Made by a program: the position numbers and the translations under genes. A stretch of DNA of 64,000 nucleotides, from NCBI RefSeq assembly GCF_038751955.1, contig NZ_JBCEXH010000004.1:186001-250000 (forward strand). The letters are read 5' to 3'. Every line of letters begins with the position of its first letter. The first letter of the stretch is position 1. The notes under the pieces were generated by a model. The model made no database searches and was not told the origin of the DNA. It saw only the letters and a list, made by a program, of their open reading frames with translations. The stretch is from Methanocalculus natronophilus (lineage in GTDB: Archaea > Halobacteriota > Methanomicrobia > Methanomicrobiales > Methanocorpusculaceae). Of this stretch, positions 42,233 to 59,793 are shown piece by piece.

Positions 42233-42328
42233 CTTAAATCGAGCAATGGATGCCTGGTCAGGTGTCCAAACGGGTGGGTTAAAGAACTGAGTCGTTTTCC
42301 CATCCTTTCGTACCAGGAGGTTTTGGTT

Positions 42329-44113
42329 ATGACACAGATGGATGGATATGCAGGAAAGATTCCGTATGTCGATCTCACCAGAGGCACGATCGATATACAG
42401 GAAACGCCGGCCGATCTCAAGAGGGATTACCTCGGTGGCCGTGGATTTGGAACAAAGATCATCTCAGACAGGATGGATCCCCTTGTTGATCCACTCTCAC
42501 CTGAGAATGTCTTCGTCCTGGCATCAGGGCCAACAACCGGAACCGGTATTCCTCTTGGTAGCCGGTACGAGGTGAGCACGAAATCTCCACTCAACAACAC
42601 GCTGATGTCCGCAAATAGTGGTGGAACATTTGGATGGAAGATCAAGAAGGCCGGATTTGATGCTGTTGTCTTCGAAGGACGATCTGAGAAGCCGGTCTAT
42701 CTCTACCTCAATGAAGGTGCAGCTGAACTGCGTGATGCCTCCTCCTACTGGGGGATGGATGTCCATGAGACAACCGACGCATTACTTGCAGATCTTGATG
42801 ATACAAAGGCGAAGGTCGCCTGTATTGGTCCTGCAGGAGAGACGAAGAGCCTTCTTGCCTGTGTGATGAATGATCGCGATCGTGCTGCAGGCAGGGGTGG
42901 TGCCGGGGCAGTACTCGGCTCAAAGAATCTCAAAGCCATCGTTGCCACCGGGAATCTCAGGATCGATGAGGGTGATAAAGACCGGCTAAATGCGGTGAAG
43001 GAGCGGATCAGAACAAAGCTCCAGGAGAATGGTATATGTGAGGCCCTCACCACCTATGGAACAGCTGTTCTTGTCAATATCATCAATGAAAATTATATCC
43101 TCCCGACAAAGAATTTCCAGACCGCATATTTTGAGAAGGCAGAGAATATCTCTGGTGAGCGGATGGCAGAGACCATCCTGAAGAAGAACTCGGGTTGTTA
43201 TGCATGTATTGTGAAGTGTTCCCGTGTCTGTGAGGTTGACGGCGTTGTGAATGAAGGGCCTGAGTATGAACCGATCTGGGCATTTGGTGCGAACCTGGGT
43301 ATTGATGATCTCAACGTCATTACCAGGGCTGCATGGGAGTGCAACAAGCTCGGGCTGGATGCAATCGGCACCCCGACAACGATTGCCTGTGCCATGGAGA
43401 TGCGGGAGAAGGGCTATATCAATGAAGGACCGACATTTGGCGAATCCGCGGGTATCGTTGATCTGGTCAGGCAGATTGGCCGCCGTGAAGGGTTTGGCGC
43501 TGAGCTGACGGATGGTTCATATCGATTTGCAGAACGGCACGGCCATCCCGAACTCTCAATGAGTGTCAAGAAACAGGATCTGCCTGCCTATGATCCACGC
43601 GGCCTGCAGGGACATGGCCTCTCCTATGCGACATCGAACCGGGGCGGCGATCATGTCTATGGATACCTGGTTGCGCCTGAGGTGCTTGGTGCTCCTGAGA
43701 AACTTGATCCGTATGTTAATGAGGGAAAAGCTGCGTGGGTACAGATCTTCCAGGATCTCTCGGCTGCAATTGATGCATCCGGTATGTGTCTCTTCAGTTC
43801 ATTTGCCCTTGATGCCACAGATTATGCGGACCTGACAGCTGCAACAATGGGAACGGACCTTGATGCAGCAGGCTTCCTCAAAATTGGAGAGCGGATCTGG
43901 AATCTTCAGAAACTCTTCAATATCAAGGTCGGCTATACAAAAGCAGATGATACCCTGCCCAAACGCCTTCTCTCAGAGCCGCTTCAGGAGGGCGGTCCAA
44001 AGGGCCGGGTCTGGGAGCCTGAACCACTTCTCAGCGAGTATTACAGCATTCGCGGATGGGATGCTGAAGGTGTACCGACAGAGGAGAAACTGCGAGAACT
44101 CGGCCTTCTCTGA
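42329..44113 (+). CDS. Aldehyde:ferredoxin oxidoreductase (AOR family)
   Basis: 594 residues from ATG 42329, which is 8 nt after GGAGG (42316-42320); the TTG at 42323 is a poor alternative. AOR enzymes oxidise aldehydes with ferredoxin as acceptor and hold a tungstopterin and a [4Fe-4S] cluster. Visible: N-terminal YLGGRGFGTKI, SGPTTGTGIPLGSRYEVSTKSPLNNTL, RDRAAGRGGAGAVLGSKNLKAI, the cluster C-YA-C-IVK-C (residues about 289-297) with a later cysteine at about 486 (SGMCLFSS), and QDLPAYDPRGLQGHGLSYATSNRGGDH. All are AOR hallmarks. The substrate is not known. The MoaD-like gene follows. Confidence 0.93.
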   Translation: MTQMDGYAGKIPYVDLTRGTIDIQETPADLKRDYLGGRGFGTKIISDRMDPLVDPLSPENVFVLASGPTTGTGIPLGSRYEVSTKSPLNNTLMSANSGGTFGWKIKKAGFDAVVFEGRSEKPVYLYLNEGAAELRDASSYWGMDVHETTDALLADLDDTKAKVACIGPAGETKSLLACVMNDRDRAAGRGGAGAVLGSKNLKAIVATGNLRIDEGDKDRLNAVKERIRTKLQENGICEALTTYGTAVLVNIINENYILPTKNFQTAYFEKAENISGERMAETILKKNSGCYACIVKCSRVCEVDGVVNEGPEYEPIWAFGANLGIDDLNVITRAAWECNKLGLDAIGTPTTIACAMEMREKGYINEGPTFGESAGIVDLVRQIGRREGFGAELTDGSYRFAERHGHPELSMSVKKQDLPAYDPRGLQGHGLSYATSNRGGDHVYGYLVAPEVLGAPEKLDPYVNEGKAAWVQIFQDLSAAIDASGMCLFSSFALDATDYADLTAATMGTDLDAAGFLKIGERIWNLQKLFNIKVGYTKADDTLPKRLLSEPLQEGGPKGRVWEPEPLLSEYYSIRGWDAEGVPTEEKLRELGLL

Positions 44114-51947: not shown

Positions 51948-52256
51948 TCGATGTAGAGAATTATCGTTCTATGTATAAAATGATTGTTCTATGGGTTGGA
52001 TGGTGGGTGGATGATAGGGGTGAAAAAGAGAATGAAATGAGTTTAATGTGGTATCGATTGATAGATGATTTGGTCTGTTGCCTGCTCTTGTTATGGATAG
52101 GCGAATACAGATATATGGGGATATTGAATTTTTAACCTGACCAAATAGGGAACAGTGAACCGACGTTGACAGACGTTGACATAATAAGATGGATCAGTTT
52201 AGATGAGCCAAGTGGATCAAAATTATATGAGCGAAAACAGTTGCTAGGGAAAGAGT
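51948..52256. other. AT-rich intergenic stretch
   Basis: 309 bp upstream of the nucleotidyltransferase gene (minus strand) and before a doubtful small plus-strand frame. Nothing more could be supported. Base composition matches the neighbouring island. Confidence 0.35.
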
Positions 52257-52439
52257 ATGAAAAATACTATTTGTGAAAGAGGACATGCGGAAAGTGGGTT
52301 CTATCATCTCTTCAGGCGTGTCCGGCAGATTGAAGAAGAGACTGATACAGGGTTTGAATGCCGGATTATGAACTATATAGGTGAATTACAGGATATAACG
52401 CGGCTGTTTGGGCTGAGGGTGGAAAAATATTATGCGTGA
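52257..52439 (+). CDS. Doubtful small hypothetical protein
   Basis: 60 residues (MKNTICERGHAESGFYHLF...) preceded by GGGAAAGAG. It is charged with a possible helix (FRRVRQIEEETDTGF). I recognise no family; it may be a degraded gene or chance frame in the AT-rich island. Confidence 0.25.
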   Translation: MKNTICERGHAESGFYHLFRRVRQIEEETDTGFECRIMNYIGELQDITRLFGLRVEKYYA

Positions 52440-52580
52440 AAAATTAGCTGCCGAATGAGGGTTATAATATAGGGATTACATATATAAAGATCTTTTGGTC
52501 TATTCGAACTCACTTTTAAATTTTGAAAGAATAGAGAAGACTTGGTATGATTATGTGCACTAAAATATCAGGAGTTTAGG

Positions 52581-53885
52581 TTATACAAAATTCACATTCA
52601 CCGAAATCCATTTCATCCAGGCTTTTACTGTTGAGGCCCTTCTTTTTGATGTAACAAGATTATATCTTGGATTATTCTCTTTGATAATCCGTGCAAGATC
52701 GGTCGAATCGATATCCTTTGGATTGAAGCCGGATTCACTTAATAATTGTATTGCAGATCGAAATGATGGTCGCTTTAATAATTGAATGATGAATAGCCGG
52801 TTACGACATCTACGATTTGAACAACGCTTAATTTCCTTTCCATAATCCGTTAAAAGGAAAGAACTGGTATTATTTCGATCCCGTTGGAGAAAGTCAAGAT
52901 AAACTGCGGCATTTGCATAATAGTCGCCCTGTCGCTCATCAAAATCAAAATATTCAGATATTTGATCCTTGGTTTTCAAATCTTCACCATACAATGTGAT
53001 GATGTCAATAATCTTATCAACATCATTTGCTTGAGGAAAAGGAATTGATTCATGTTCAAAGGCATCTACTGGCACTGAATTAATGTATTCCTCCAGATTT
53101 ACGTCTAATTTCGGATCTTCATTAATTGAGAATGATCGCAGTTCTGTGATCTCAAGGTCGCCAAAACGCTTCCCAAACTTAAATTTTGAGAGATAAAAGA
53201 TTCCATTTGAATAGACAAAGAATATTGGAATTATTGGTTTGTTAGTTTTTTCTGACCACTCTTTCCATGGATAGTAGAGTTGCCGAATATGGAAATCGTC
53301 CCGCTTTCCAATCTTAGCCTCTATTAGATAAATACCATTCTGCCCCTCATAACCGGAATCAACTTCTATTTGTACTCCATCAACGACGATTTGAGTGTTG
53401 CTTTCAGGTAAATGTAATGAAAAAATACCTGAATGAAGCCTACCCCTTATTGTAAGATGTAAATACGACTCATTAGTGAACTTTTTCAAAAGGGATGCAA
53501 TATTTGCATAATCAATTGCCTGGAATTCGCTGGAGATTGAACCAATTTGTAGGGTTTCAATGGTATCCGACTCAGGAGATGGATCATATAATTCCCAGGG
53601 TACTTCATCAAAGATGTTTTTGTATTGGAAGTATGATTTTATTTCACCATCTTTATAAATGACATATTCTCCATTTTTAATAGGAAGGATGGATAAATGT
53701 TGCTTTTTAAATATTTCTGGTCGTGATTGAATTGTATCATGCTTAGCTAGTAGACGAGGCTCTCTCCCCCCAATCTCCTTTAGGTTTGTTGCAGAAATCT
53801 CAACGTATCCATTAGCTTCAATAGTATCGAGTAAATTTAGGGTTTGAAAAACCTGATTCCATGCCTTATTCATTTTTGTGGTCAT
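52581..53885 (-). CDS. Type II restriction endonuclease-like protein
   Basis: 434 residues, the likely nuclease partner of the adjacent Dam-type methylase. A PD-(D/E)XK core is seen: VDSGYEGQNGIYLIEAKIGKRDD (D at about 174, EAK at about 189-191). The C-terminal 200 residues (YGEDLKTKDQISEYFDFDERQGDYYANAAVYLDFLQR) look like a winged-helix DNA-binding part common to DUF6997-type restriction enzymes. Lies 9 nt downstream of the methylase in the same direction. Target site cannot be read, though the methylase is adenine-specific. High AT content. Confidence 0.75.
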   Translation of the reverse strand: MTTKMNKAWNQVFQTLNLLDTIEANGYVEISATNLKEIGGREPRLLAKHDTIQSRPEIFKKQHLSILPIKNGEYVIYKDGEIKSYFQYKNIFDEVPWELYDPSPESDTIETLQIGSISSEFQAIDYANIASLLKKFTNESYLHLTIRGRLHSGIFSLHLPESNTQIVVDGVQIEVDSGYEGQNGIYLIEAKIGKRDDFHIRQLYYPWKEWSEKTNKPIIPIFFVYSNGIFYLSKFKFGKRFGDLEITELRSFSINEDPKLDVNLEEYINSVPVDAFEHESIPFPQANDVDKIIDIITLYGEDLKTKDQISEYFDFDERQGDYYANAAVYLDFLQRDRNNTSSFLLTDYGKEIKRCSNRRCRNRLFIIQLLKRPSFRSAIQLLSESGFNPKDIDSTDLARIIKENNPRYNLVTSKRRASTVKAWMKWISVNVNFV

Positions 53886-53894
53886 AAAAATCGA

Positions 53895-54809
53895 TCAGTA
53901 GTTCATTACGATAATTTCATTGATTTCTCCTCGCTTACTTGCATCGGAGTTGATCATCCTTCTGGCTGGTACCCGCTCAATGGTATATTGAGCATAGAGC
54001 TCATCAAAAAAATTATCCTCTGGATTAATATTTTTTGGGTCTGAGTTGCTTAGCATCAGTTTAGCTTTCTTTCTATCGCATTTTGTAAAGAATTCTGCTA
54101 GTCTCTTCTGCTCTGAGTCATCAAATCCATTCTTGGAATAGTTGGTAAATGATGCAGTTGAACTCAGAGGTCGATAAGGAGGATCAAAATAAACAAATGA
54201 ATATTCAGTGATATATCTGGATGACTTTGTAAAATCGCCAAGATGAATCCTAGTATTTTGCAGAATCTCAGAATCAGCTCTTAATATATCAGGGTGAACG
54301 ATTTTTGGGTTTTTATAGCTGCCATATGGAACATTAAAATCTCCTTTTGCATTCACTCTGAATAAGCCATTGAAACAGGTTTTATTTAAAAAAATTAAAT
54401 CGCCTGCTCTTGGAATCCATGATTTGCTATACCTTTTATAATTAAAATCGGGTTTTACTTTGTTAAATTCTGTCCGAACCGAATAATAATACTCTTTTCT
54501 TCCATCATCATCTTTTGATATGAATTCCTCAGTGATTCCACAGAGATAATCTATTAGATCTTCAACATTACGTTTAACTACATTATATGCGAGAATCAAC
54601 TCTTCATTAATATCAAAGATGTGGCATTCTTCAAATGAAAACATTTCATTAAAGCAAAAATAAACTGCCCCTCCACCAATGAATGGCTCAATAAATGTGG
54701 ATATCTCGCCATTTTTAAGTTCTTTGGGAACTCTTTTGACAAATTCCTCTCGCAATTGGGTTTTTCCCCCTGCCCATTTGAGGAACGGCTTTGCATTGGT
54801 TTCTGGCAT
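53895..54809 (-). CDS. DNA adenine methylase (Dam/DpnM family)
   Basis: 304 residues. N6-adenine methyltransferase of the D12/Dam class: FLKWAGGKTQLREEFVKRVP (AdoMet FxGxG-like, residues about 8-20), GGGAVYFCFN, NKTCFNGLFRVNAKGDFNVPYG and FVYFDPPYRPLSSTASFTNYSKNGF (catalytic DPPY). This fits family members with GATC or related targets. Leads the restriction endonuclease gene. AT-rich relative to the window. Confidence 0.93.
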   Translation of the reverse strand: MPETNAKPFLKWAGGKTQLREEFVKRVPKELKNGEISTFIEPFIGGGAVYFCFNEMFSFEECHIFDINEELILAYNVVKRNVEDLIDYLCGITEEFISKDDDGRKEYYYSVRTEFNKVKPDFNYKRYSKSWIPRAGDLIFLNKTCFNGLFRVNAKGDFNVPYGSYKNPKIVHPDILRADSEILQNTRIHLGDFTKSSRYITEYSFVYFDPPYRPLSSTASFTNYSKNGFDDSEQKRLAEFFTKCDRKKAKLMLSNSDPKNINPEDNFFDELYAQYTIERVPARRMINSDASKRGEINEIIVMNY

Positions 54810-55066
54810 ATTGTAGCACTTTAGTTTTGTTCTTTGTCAATTTACACTCTTTCGTTGTACAAAATTTTAAATCCATTGCATTCAAGCTCTAGATCCTGTT
54901 CCAATAGGTTACTTTGATCTCTATTGTATTAGGCTTCGTAGATATTTTAAGGAGTACCTACAGGTGGTGAAAGTGAAATGATAGAAAATGAAATCAAATT
55001 GGTCCGATCTTCAAAAGTTTTATCGCACCGAACTTGATAAAGAATGACCAGGAAGGAGATGATACC

Positions 55067-55984
55067 ATGCCCGTGCCTGATTTTCAATCATTGATGCTGC
55101 CCGTGCTGAAATGTGTCGCAGACGGAAGGGAGCATACTACCAAAGAAGTTCGCCAGATGATGGCAGAGAGACTGAAGCTCTCAGATGAAGATCTCGCAGA
55201 ACTTCTTCCAAGCGGTAACCAGTCAACCTTTGATAACAGGGCCGGGTGGGCGATGACCTATTTAAAGAAATCCGGCTTGCTTAAAAGTCCAAAACGTGCG
55301 ATCGTGAGGATTACCGACCGCGGCAAAGAGGTTTTGCAACAGAATCCAGAAAAAATTGATATGAAGTTCCTCGAACAATACGAAGAATACCAGGAATTCA
55401 AGGCGCTTCGCCATGATAAAAGCAGGACTGTGCCCGTAACCGGTAAAGATACTTCCTCCCCCGATTTAACCCCTGAAGAAACTCTAGAAAACAGCTACCA
55501 GGACCTCCGCAACCAGCTCGCCGATGAGCTCCTGGAGCGAGTCAAACAATGTCCGCCCGAGTTTTTTGAGAAACTTGTGGTGCATCTTCTCGTTGCAATG
55601 GGCTATGGAGGATCACGGAGCGATGCAGGCCGGGCGGTTGGAAAGAGTGGCGATGGCGGTATCGACGGGATTATCAAAGAAGATAGGCTGGGTCTTGATG
55701 TTGTAAATATCCAGGCAAAACGGTGGCAGAACACGGTTGGCAGGCCGGATATCCAGGCATTTGTTGGAAGTCTGGCCGGGAGCAGGGCAAAGAAAGGTGT
55801 CTTCATTACAACATCGCAATTCTCTGGAGAGGCGCGTGATTATGTCAATTTCATCGAGCAGAAGGTGGTGCTCATTGATGGTGAGCAGCTTGCCCAGCTA
55901 ATGATCGATTTCGATATTGGCGTTTCGAAAGAAGCAGAATATGTGGTCAAAAAGATCGATTTTGACTATTTTGAGGGGAATTAG
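55067..55984 (+). CDS. mrr: Mrr-family restriction endonuclease
   Basis: 305 residues from ATG 55067, 8 nt after GGAAGGAG. Residues about 1-95 form the Mrr N-terminal winged helix (REHTTKEVRQMMAERLKLSDEDL), and residues about 160-300 form the catalytic domain: FEKLVVHLLVAMGYGGS, SGDGGIDGIIKEDRLGLDVVNIQAKRW (D...QAK, the Mrr form of PD-(D/E)XK), PDIQAFVGSLAGSRAKKGVFITTSQFS. Mrr cuts methylated DNA. Unlike its neighbours it has near-average base composition. It stands beside an adenine methylase, whose products Mrr enzymes might attack. Confidence 0.93.
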   Translation: MPVPDFQSLMLPVLKCVADGREHTTKEVRQMMAERLKLSDEDLAELLPSGNQSTFDNRAGWAMTYLKKSGLLKSPKRAIVRITDRGKEVLQQNPEKIDMKFLEQYEEYQEFKALRHDKSRTVPVTGKDTSSPDLTPEETLENSYQDLRNQLADELLERVKQCPPEFFEKLVVHLLVAMGYGGSRSDAGRAVGKSGDGGIDGIIKEDRLGLDVVNIQAKRWQNTVGRPDIQAFVGSLAGSRAKKGVFITTSQFSGEARDYVNFIEQKVVLIDGEQLAQLMIDFDIGVSKEAEYVVKKIDFDYFEGN

Positions 55985-55991
55985 CTCCATG

Positions 55992-56168
55992 TCATATTCT
56001 TCGTAATGCATACCTGTCCTTGCTCATTAAGTCAGATCGTACAATTTTTTTGTCATCCTCGGACACGGCATACCGCTCTGCCTGGGTGCGCATGTTCTGC
56101 GGTCTGAGCGTCAGCCGCTTTGCCTCAACGATGCCAAGGATCACGCCATCAACGACAAGGGCATTACC
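55992..56168 (-). pseudogene. Remnant of a type I restriction subunit (HsdR) N-terminus
   Basis: 59 codons, with NALVVDGVILGIVEAKRLT followed by NMRTQAERYAVSEDD, matching the N-terminal nuclease segment of HsdR (VDGxxIGVIEAKxxxxxxxxQAERYA). The EAK catalytic residues are kept, but the fragment lacks the start and helicase part, and ends at a stop 55992. A degraded gene in the defence island. Confidence 0.7.
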
Positions 56169-57441
<1,273 letters not shown>

Positions 57442-58928
57442 ATGAGATCAGAACTACTCCTGGTGGGAATGGCACTTCTTCTCTTTATAGCCTTTGCAAT
57501 CTGTCCTGTACAGGCACAGCCGCAAACAGAGAACACTGAGGTGCGGAATTTTGGCTTTGTGAACATGCCTTTCAACGTCATAAAATGTCGCTGGAGGGGC
57601 AGGAGCGGCAGCAGGTAGGCCTGGATCTTGTTGCCGAGGGATTCATCGGACCGGTCGGTCTCACTTCACCAGATGATGGAAGCGGGAGGCTCTTTGTGGT
57701 GGATCTGATCGGCGAGATCCGGATCATTGATGAGAACGGCACCCTGCTTGAGGAGCCTTTCCTGAATATCAGGGATCAGCTCGTCGAGCTGCGACTATCT
57801 TTCGATGAGCGCGGGCTGCTTGGTCTCGCATTCCATCCGGACTTCGCCGAGAGCGGCAGATTCTTTATCTACTACAGCGCCCCGCTCAGGGAAGGAGCGC
57901 CAGAGGGATGGGATCATACCAGCCGGATATCAGAATTCAATCTTCTGGCAGAAGATGAGAATCGTGCAGACCCCACATCCGAGCGGGTGATCCTGGAGGT
58001 CGACCAGCCACAGCTCAATCACAATTCCGGATCGATTGCCTTTGGCCCTGACGGCTATCTATACATACCTCTTGGCGATGGCGGTGGTGGCGGCGATGTC
58101 GGTAGAGGCCACCCACCGGAAGGCCACGGACAGAACACCACCACACTGCTTGGTAGCATTCTCCGGATAGATATCGATGGTGAGGAGCCCTATGAGATTC
58201 CGGACGACAACCCGTTTATCGGAGATGATGAGGTGCTGGATGAGATATATGCCTACGGACTGCGTAATCCCTGGCACATGACCTTTGATGCAGGCGGAAA
58301 GAACCATCTCTTTGCCGCCGATGTCGGGGAGGCCCTGTGGGAGTCAGTAAATATCATTGAAGAAGGCGGCAACTATGGCTGGAATCTCAAGGAGGGAAGT
58401 CATGCTTTCGATCCAGAGAACCCGTGGGAGTCTCCTGAAGAAGTGCCGGAAACAGGCTACCGCGGTGAGCCCCTGATCGATCCAATCATCGAGTATCCAC
58501 ATGCCAATCAGCCTGGTGGCCTTGGAATATCTATTATAGGCGGATATGTTTACCGTGGTACTGCCATTCTGGAATTCGAGGGACGCTACATCTTCGCGGA
58601 CTGGAACAGGGCGGGTGGCGATGGCAATGGCCTCATCTTAATCGCAACCCCTCCTGAAGAGAATATCACAGAAAAAATGTGGGAGTTTACGGAACTCGTG
58701 CCGGTTCCCTACCAGGCAATTGGCGCCTACATCCTGGCAATCGGACAGGATGCAGACCATGAACTCTATATCCTGACCACTCAGAACAGCGGGCCGTCCG
58801 GAGAAACGGGCAGGGTCTACCGCCTCATTCCGCCTCCTGAAGATCCCGAACCGAGCCCGGCACCAGGATTTTGTTTGTTTGCGGCCCTTTTTGGAATTAT
58901 TGTCGCATATACTATGCGAAAATGGTGA
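57442..58928 (+). pseudogene. Secreted PQQ-type sugar dehydrogenase, signal peptide frame-shifted
   Basis: ATG 57442 follows GGTGGCGAGG and opens a signal peptide (RSELLLVGMALLLFIAFAIC...PVQAQ) in frame 1 that ends with TAG at about 57616. The enzyme lies in another frame from ATG 57585 to 58928 (447 residues): VGLDLVAEGFIGPVGLTSPDDGSG, FDERGLLGLAFHPDF, LNHNSGSIAFGPDGYLYIPLGDGGGGGD, YGLRNPWHMTFD, AADVGEALWESVNIIEEGGNYGWN, the soluble glucose/sorbosone dehydrogenase beta-propeller. The C-terminus PAPGFCLFAALFGIIVAYTMRKW resembles a PGF-CTERM sorting tail. A shift of one base near 57560-57600 would join the two. Confidence 0.7.
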
Positions 58929-59094
58929 TCAGCAGGGAATGGAGAAATGAATGGGGAATGAATAGGTGGAGTTTCAGTAAGGGAGCATTCCTGGTACACA
59001 CATTTTTTTATCTTTTCGCCCCCACTATTCTTCCTCATAGCGCAACCAGATATTATCCTGACAGCGCAAACAGATCATACAACAGGTGCTTCCC

Positions 59095-59793
59095 ATGCAA
59101 CGCATCTCCTACCAGGTCATCATCGGGGCAATCCTCCTCATTCTCGGGGGATTGCTCCTCCTCAGGGCAACCGGTATCTATGATACCGGAGAGTTCCTTG
59201 TCTATGCACCGTCACTGATCGTCCTCTTTGCGGTAATCGCACTTTTCAAGAGCAGCTTTCAGTTCTTATCCGGGCCAGTCGTCCTGATCGTCATCTTCGG
59301 CACAATCCAGGCTGTTGCTCTTGATTATCTCTCCCCGGATGTCATCCTCCCCGTCATCATCATCGCAGTCGGTCTCGGCTTCATCTTCAACCGGGTGAGA
59401 CGCCCATCAACTGGGGAATCAACTGATCAGGCAACTGATACGGTCGAGCTGATGGCAGTCCTCGGTGGTGTCGAGAGCAGGAGCATCTCGAAGAGCTTCA
59501 GAGGGGGTGAGATGCTCGCTATTTTTGGGGGTGTGGATCTCGACCTCCGGGATGCGGGCATCAGCGATCCGCCTGCAGAGATCCAGGTCTTCACCCTCTT
59601 TGGCGGCACCGAGATCCGGGTGCCCGAAGACTGGAATGTCCGGTTGAATGTCCTGCCGGTGCTCGGCTCAGCAGAGGATGAACGGCGGCGGCCAACATTT
59701 CCAGAAGATACTGGTGCAGAAAAAACGCGGGCTGGTCCAAATCTTGTCATCACCGGCTTTGTTGCATTCGGTGGCGTCTCGGTAATGGATTAA
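59095..59793 (+). CDS. LiaF-like membrane protein
   Basis: 232 residues. Four membrane helices in residues about 1-100 (ISYQVIIGAILLILGGLLLLR and others), then a soluble C-terminal domain with two glycine-rich strand motifs, AVLGGVESRSISKSFRGGEMLAIFGGVDLDL and FTLFGGTEIRVPEDWNV, as in the LiaF/LiaI cell-envelope stress family (DUF5668/DUF2154). In Firmicutes LiaF restrains a stress sensor kinase. Role in archaea unknown. Confidence 0.85.
   Translation: MQRISYQVIIGAILLILGGLLLLRATGIYDTGEFLVYAPSLIVLFAVIALFKSSFQFLSGPVVLIVIFGTIQAVALDYLSPDVILPVIIIAVGLGFIFNRVRRPSTGESTDQATDTVELMAVLGGVESRSISKSFRGGEMLAIFGGVDLDLRDAGISDPPAEIQVFTLFGGTEIRVPEDWNVRLNVLPVLGSAEDERRRPTFPEDTGAEKTRAGPNLVITGFVAFGGVSVMD

Follow-up and report, generated by a model that had tools for sequence, protein, structure and literature searches.

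Split genes and surface-held proteins in archaea

Genes divided between two reading frames have been reported in archaea. The fucosidase gene fucA1 of Sulfolobus solfataricus is described as using -1 frameshifting, with an A-AAA-AAT heptamer, a putative stem-loop and rare codons (PMC8211752), and the chitinase gene of Pyrococcus furiosus as being split by one inserted nucleotide (PMC3575233). Surface proteins of euryarchaea offer a further comparison, S-layer proteins typically carrying both a signal peptide and a PGF-CTERM tail according to a review (PMC8559796).

The gene considered here lies in a 64,000-nucleotide stretch of Methanocalculus natronophilus DNA, called the window below, by which we mean the whole stretch that was analysed. 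We think it probable that positions 57442-58928 are one gene for an exported, surface-held protein of the glucose/sorbosone dehydrogenase (GSDH) family, and that its reading frame is interrupted after the signal peptide and before the enzyme domain; the protein would be held at the surface through an archaeosortase-type C-terminal tail. The resemblance to the P. furiosus chitinase gene, as reported, is that of an archaeal gene found in two open reading frames (ORFs) and in a relative as one; the difference is that the inserted nucleotide was identified there and tested in vivo, neither of which holds for the window gene (PMC3575233). With fucA1 the locus shares two ORFs, the second in the -1 frame, and a short overlap, whereas of the signals reported for fucA1 it has only A AAA and no notable fold (PMC8211752). 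Like the PGF-CTERM substrates of archaeosortase A, the window protein has the PGF motif, hydrophobic stretch and basic end and is encoded in a genome that has archaeosortase A, but unlike them it has no reported profile match and its signal peptide is out of frame.

Two reading frames and a sorting-like tail

The first ORF (57442-57618, + strand) begins with ATG at 57442, 8 nt downstream of a Shine-Dalgarno-like AGGTG (57429-57433, +), and runs for 58 codons to TAG at 57616-57618; a search of the 260 nt preceding this ATG gave no TATA-like box. Its translation begins MRSELLLVGMALLLFIAFAICPVQA QPQTEN. Across the 232 genomes of the order, the sole strong match outside its own genome was the N-terminus of the closest GSDH orthologue, that of genome G066 (E 4e-9, 68% identity over 34 residues; next-best match E 0.016), and the first 31 residues of the G066 protein are 74% identical to the window signal peptide. 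Because its only strong outside match is the N-terminus of that orthologue, the 57442 ORF is, on sequence comparison, no chance ORF.

The GSDH-family ORF (57585-58928, +; 447 aa) is in the -1 frame relative to the signal-peptide ORF. Its frame is open from 57540, directly after TGA at 57537-57539, and the break falls inside the 76 nt that are open in both frames (57540-57615, +). No Shine-Dalgarno match was seen in the 22 nt before 57585, nor a TATA-like box in 70 nt. The original prediction had placed a start and signal peptide at 57442, a stop near 57616 and an enzyme ORF opening at 57585 in a different frame, and the ATG at 57585, the -1 frame and the stop at 58928 agree with this.

The product, a putative GSDH-family sugar dehydrogenase, matches the GSDH profile PF07995 (E 1.5e-36; 126.8 bits against a gathering score of 25, residues 26-341) and is far under the cut-off of TIGR03606 (87 vs 435 bits). 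It is single-copy in its own genome, and its relatives of solved structure include hedgehog-interacting protein and soluble quinoprotein glucose dehydrogenase. Among solved structures, 57585-58928 is in fact matched best by the hedgehog-interacting proteins (E 6e-42), with quinoprotein glucose dehydrogenase following at 8e-17. A structure model of the 447-aa ORF reached a mean pLDDT of 68, a middling confidence, and includes a C-terminal helix at residues 427-446.

No decay of the enzyme domain was seen, either in dN/dS or at invariant columns. The domain dN/dS was 0.11 against G066 and 0.08 against the congeneric genome G007, and since dS is near-saturated (1.3 and 2.4, respectively) these values speak only for long-term constraint. 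Using 28 of the 30 rows of our tree, the window protein differs at 2 of the 79 columns that are invariant across the other 27 rows, while seven other rows tested in the same way differ at 0 to 3.

The tail at 58854-58925 (+; SPAPGFCLFAALFGIIVAYTMRKW) is made up of a PGF motif, a hydrophobic stretch that forms helix 427-446 in the structure model, and a basic end. For the window protein no PF18204 match was listed up to E 0.1 and no TIGR04126 match up to E 1, negatives to be read in the light of HMMER filters that may discard very weak matches. With the three elements present and no profile match reported, the tail is best termed PGF-CTERM-like only; the archaeosortase-type tail of the original prediction is thus upheld in its architecture and not by the profiles. 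The signal peptide that a PGF-CTERM protein carries in frame at its N-terminus is here in the other frame. Five PF18204 matches up to E 1 occur in the genome, the window protein not among them, and three are over the cut-off, although among 14 control genomes this short profile also finds matches in 9, exceeding the cut-off in 2 of them. Archaeosortase A itself is present in the window's genome (TIGR04125, 262 bits, cut-off 75). The G066 tail matches no PGF-CTERM profile and has only a sub-cut-off Heimdall-CTERM match, while that of G007 is over the PF18204 cut-off and under that of TIGR04126.

One-frame relatives and the cause of the break

Relatives of the window GSDH were found in 57 of the 232 genomes of the order. 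The closest orthologue found, with about 74% identity, is that of G066: one ORF of 517 codons, beginning MRSGMLMVGMVLLFCIALAICPVQAAPQTEN and ending in a PGF-like tail. Among 7 further congeneric genomes that were searched, G007 alone has the gene; there a single 672-aa ORF (L002:1474-3492, - strand) joins a signal peptide, cupredoxin, DUF7282, GSDH and PGF-CTERM, with profile matches to PF00127, PF23951, PF07995 and PF18204; two genes 3' of it also lie 3' of the window gene. Because G066 and G007 encode both parts in one frame, the two window ORFs are probably parts of one secreted, tail-bearing protein. Two side observations concern G007. Its five-part fusion could pass electrons from the dehydrogenase to the fused copper protein at the cell surface, and a LiaF-like gene, at 59086-59793 downstream of the GSDH gene in the window, lies upstream of it in G007.

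Measured between the last signal-peptide residue that is shared and a conserved VGL, the linker is 80 nt long in the window and 144 nt (48 codons) in G066; in G007, where its beginning was set by hand, it spans about 594 nt (about 198 codons). VGL stands at residue 80 in G066 and 228 in G007. The three linkers gave no base-by-base alignment. It had been proposed that orthologues be aligned to locate a missing or extra base, but because the linkers differ in length and do not align, neither G066 nor G007 can place a single base. The prediction of a frameshift in a secreted protein survives in part, in that the one-frame relatives and archaeosortase A favour one gene for the two ORFs, while a single-base indel is not required. 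The likeliest cause, we infer, is that an ancestor of the window genome underwent a linker deletion whose length was not a multiple of three; this would explain the short linker and the frame break together. As assembled, the export signal would lead to nothing more than a 58-residue dead-end peptide, and the GSDH domain could be produced only in small amounts, through reinitiation at 57585 or through slippage as a rare event; without slippage the product would presumably remain intracellular. At this locus a gene caller is likely to report an intracellular enzyme that has a stray membrane tail.

In favour of a broken frame are the one ORF of G066 with the same signal peptide and tail, the one ORF of G007 with shared downstream genes, the absence of the G007 N-terminal piece elsewhere in the genome, an archaeosortase A over its cut-off, a GSDH dN/dS of about 0.1, and a 57585 start with neither Shine-Dalgarno nor TATA-like box. 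Against it, 14 orthologues of another genus without a signal peptide make a cytosolic product from 57585 conceivable, the domain has not decayed as a long-dead gene would, the cupredoxin remnant of the window is weak, and the window and G066 tails match no PGF-CTERM profile.

Traces of such a deletion were sought directly. The window sequence after the signal peptide, TEVRNFGFVNMPFNVIK, recalls the first cupredoxin strand, but as a sign of deletion from a G007-like ancestor this was rejected, its shuffle p of 0.036 showing no advantage over the control, the other reading frame of the window (0.041); the G066 linker gave 0.003. Misassembly with the missing piece elsewhere in the genome was likewise set aside, the 225-aa N-terminal part of the G007 protein having no match in the window genome, G000, although the same query recovers G007 itself. 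Homology of upstream DNA between the window and G066 was not significant (197 of 300 shuffles equally good), and the comparison with G007 (7 of 300, or 3 of 300 including the signal-peptide region) was not used.

Second in likelihood would be a small indel introduced into 57540-57615 by sequencing or assembly, the organism itself then having one intact ORF. We regard this as rather unlikely, and its likelihood is contained in that of the broken-frame reading rather than added to it. The single frames of G066 and G007 and the conserved, undecayed domain are what an indel error would predict, but the linker also differs in length from that of both relatives and single-base runs in 57540-57615 are at most four long. 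A mild argument against a poor assembly is that, of 10 conserved window genes tested, 9 are covered almost from end to end by their best NCBIfam match; the remaining one (42323-44113) has a partial match to a poorly fitting aldehyde ferredoxin oxidoreductase profile.

Orthologues without a signal peptide and their start sites

Fourteen orthologues from one other genus, here g6 (L003-L005, L022-L032; 65-71% identity), bear on whether 57585 is a true start. They represent 14 of the 15 g6 genomes with the gene, L034 (G076, gene in two pieces) being omitted from the start-site table, and the sequence of L018 is identical to L022. In the tree, built from 30 of the 41 loci L001-L041 (L010, L011, L015, L017, L018, L020, L034, L037, L039, L040 and L041 omitted), the g6 rows form a clade with support 100/99; the branch order among the window, G007 and G066 was not recovered. 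None of the 14 shows a signal peptide or an in-frame hydrophobic stretch before the domain, the best 15-residue hydropathy there being 1.15 vs 2.98-3.51 in the window, G066 and G007, with six having too little open frame for a 15-residue window and L032 cut by a contig end. A hydrophobic tail is missing from all 12 with complete ends, L027 and L030 being cut by contig ends. In 13 of the 14 a TATA-like box precedes the start site by 42-47 nt, and the hand-placed start sites follow a Shine-Dalgarno match by 3-10 nt; the g6 genes thus carry a TATA-like box and/or a Shine-Dalgarno match, and 57585 has neither. Since genes without a signal peptide have this box before their start, loss of export has evidently occurred in the GSDH family and was accompanied by a promoter. 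The family in this archaeal order appears to shift between exported and intracellular forms by loss or gain of the signal peptide and tail.

That 57585 is likewise a genuine start of an intracellular enzyme, with the upstream ORF a leftover, we consider improbable. All 14 g6 orthologues examined do without a signal peptide, and in three of them an ATG lies 9 codons before a conserved V, compared with 10 codons in the window; on the other side, 57585 lacks the start signals that g6 has, including the box 42-47 nt upstream in 13 of 14, and the window gene keeps a hydrophobic tail that is missing from the 12 complete-ended orthologues. The g6 genes are therefore not in the window's state, which combines a tail with no such promoter. 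Orthologues that begin at about the counterpart of 57585 and have no signal peptide had been named as the finding that would overturn the original prediction; such orthologues exist in 14 of 14 g6 genes, but the 12 with complete ends are also tail-less and the genes have start signals of their own.

Programmed -1 frameshifting as in fucA1, an option also raised by the original prediction, is very unlikely to join the frames. The needed shift is indeed -1, a -1 case is reported from archaea (PMC8211752), and P-site slippage by -1 at a candidate A AAA (57582-57585, +) would join the two ORFs, but there is no X XXY YYZ heptamer at A AAA, where the zero frame reads GTC ATA AAA TGT, the pseudoknot-free folding of three downstream stretches is no stronger than that of shuffled sequences (z -0.37, 0.98 and 1.02), and the arrangement is not conserved, G066 and G007 having single ORFs. 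Should slippage nevertheless join the frames, this would be a rare case of archaeal recoding. We give equally little credence to a scheme of two enzyme forms, one surface-anchored by -1 slippage at A AAA and one intracellular from 57585, in which the intracellular g6 orthologues and the TATA-like box, Shine-Dalgarno and ATC inside the G066 gene are stages of the same dual targeting.

That block of the G066 gene deserves description in its own right. The G066 ORF contains a g6-type block from box to ATC, read there as linker EPGIFKYTRPIHLPSRGGIIAV; at L021:1414-1479 the g6 promoter and leader (TTTAAA box, GATCCATC, GGGGTGGGATCATC) are translated. Matches of the G066 N-terminus extend into g6 upstream DNA, several of them across a stop. 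Either a promoter came to be read as protein, or a promoter was born in a coding linker.

The codon at the g6 start sites is ATC in 9 of the 14 genes, ATG in 3 and GTG in 2 (L003-L005, L022-L032), and the three types are intermixed over the tree. In six of the nine ATC genes (L004, L005, L023, L025, L030, L031) the stretch from the in-frame stop upstream to the domain contains no ATG, GTG or TTG other than the GTG of VGL. These start sites suggest natural AUC initiation in g6. A start at the VGL GTG is possible and would count against it, though this codon is also kept in the signal-peptide orthologues L006, L021 and L038, which need no start there; archaeal aIF1, which is reported to favour discrimination against start codons that are not canonical (PMC6237735), counts against AUC as well. 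A literature search for AUC starts in archaea returned none by title or abstract opening among the matches listed, and in one on this dehydrogenase and methanogens the name of the dehydrogenase was absent among the matches listed. The AUC at g6 start sites is more interesting than the broken window gene, which is ordinary overall.

As to the surroundings of the window gene, a restriction-modification-like island (52581-55984) lies beside it, with a DUF6996/6997/7226 protein, a D12 adenine methyltransferase and an Mrr-type endonuclease, and G+C is 0.39 over 52001-56000 vs 0.53 and 0.50 in the neighbouring 4-kb stretches.
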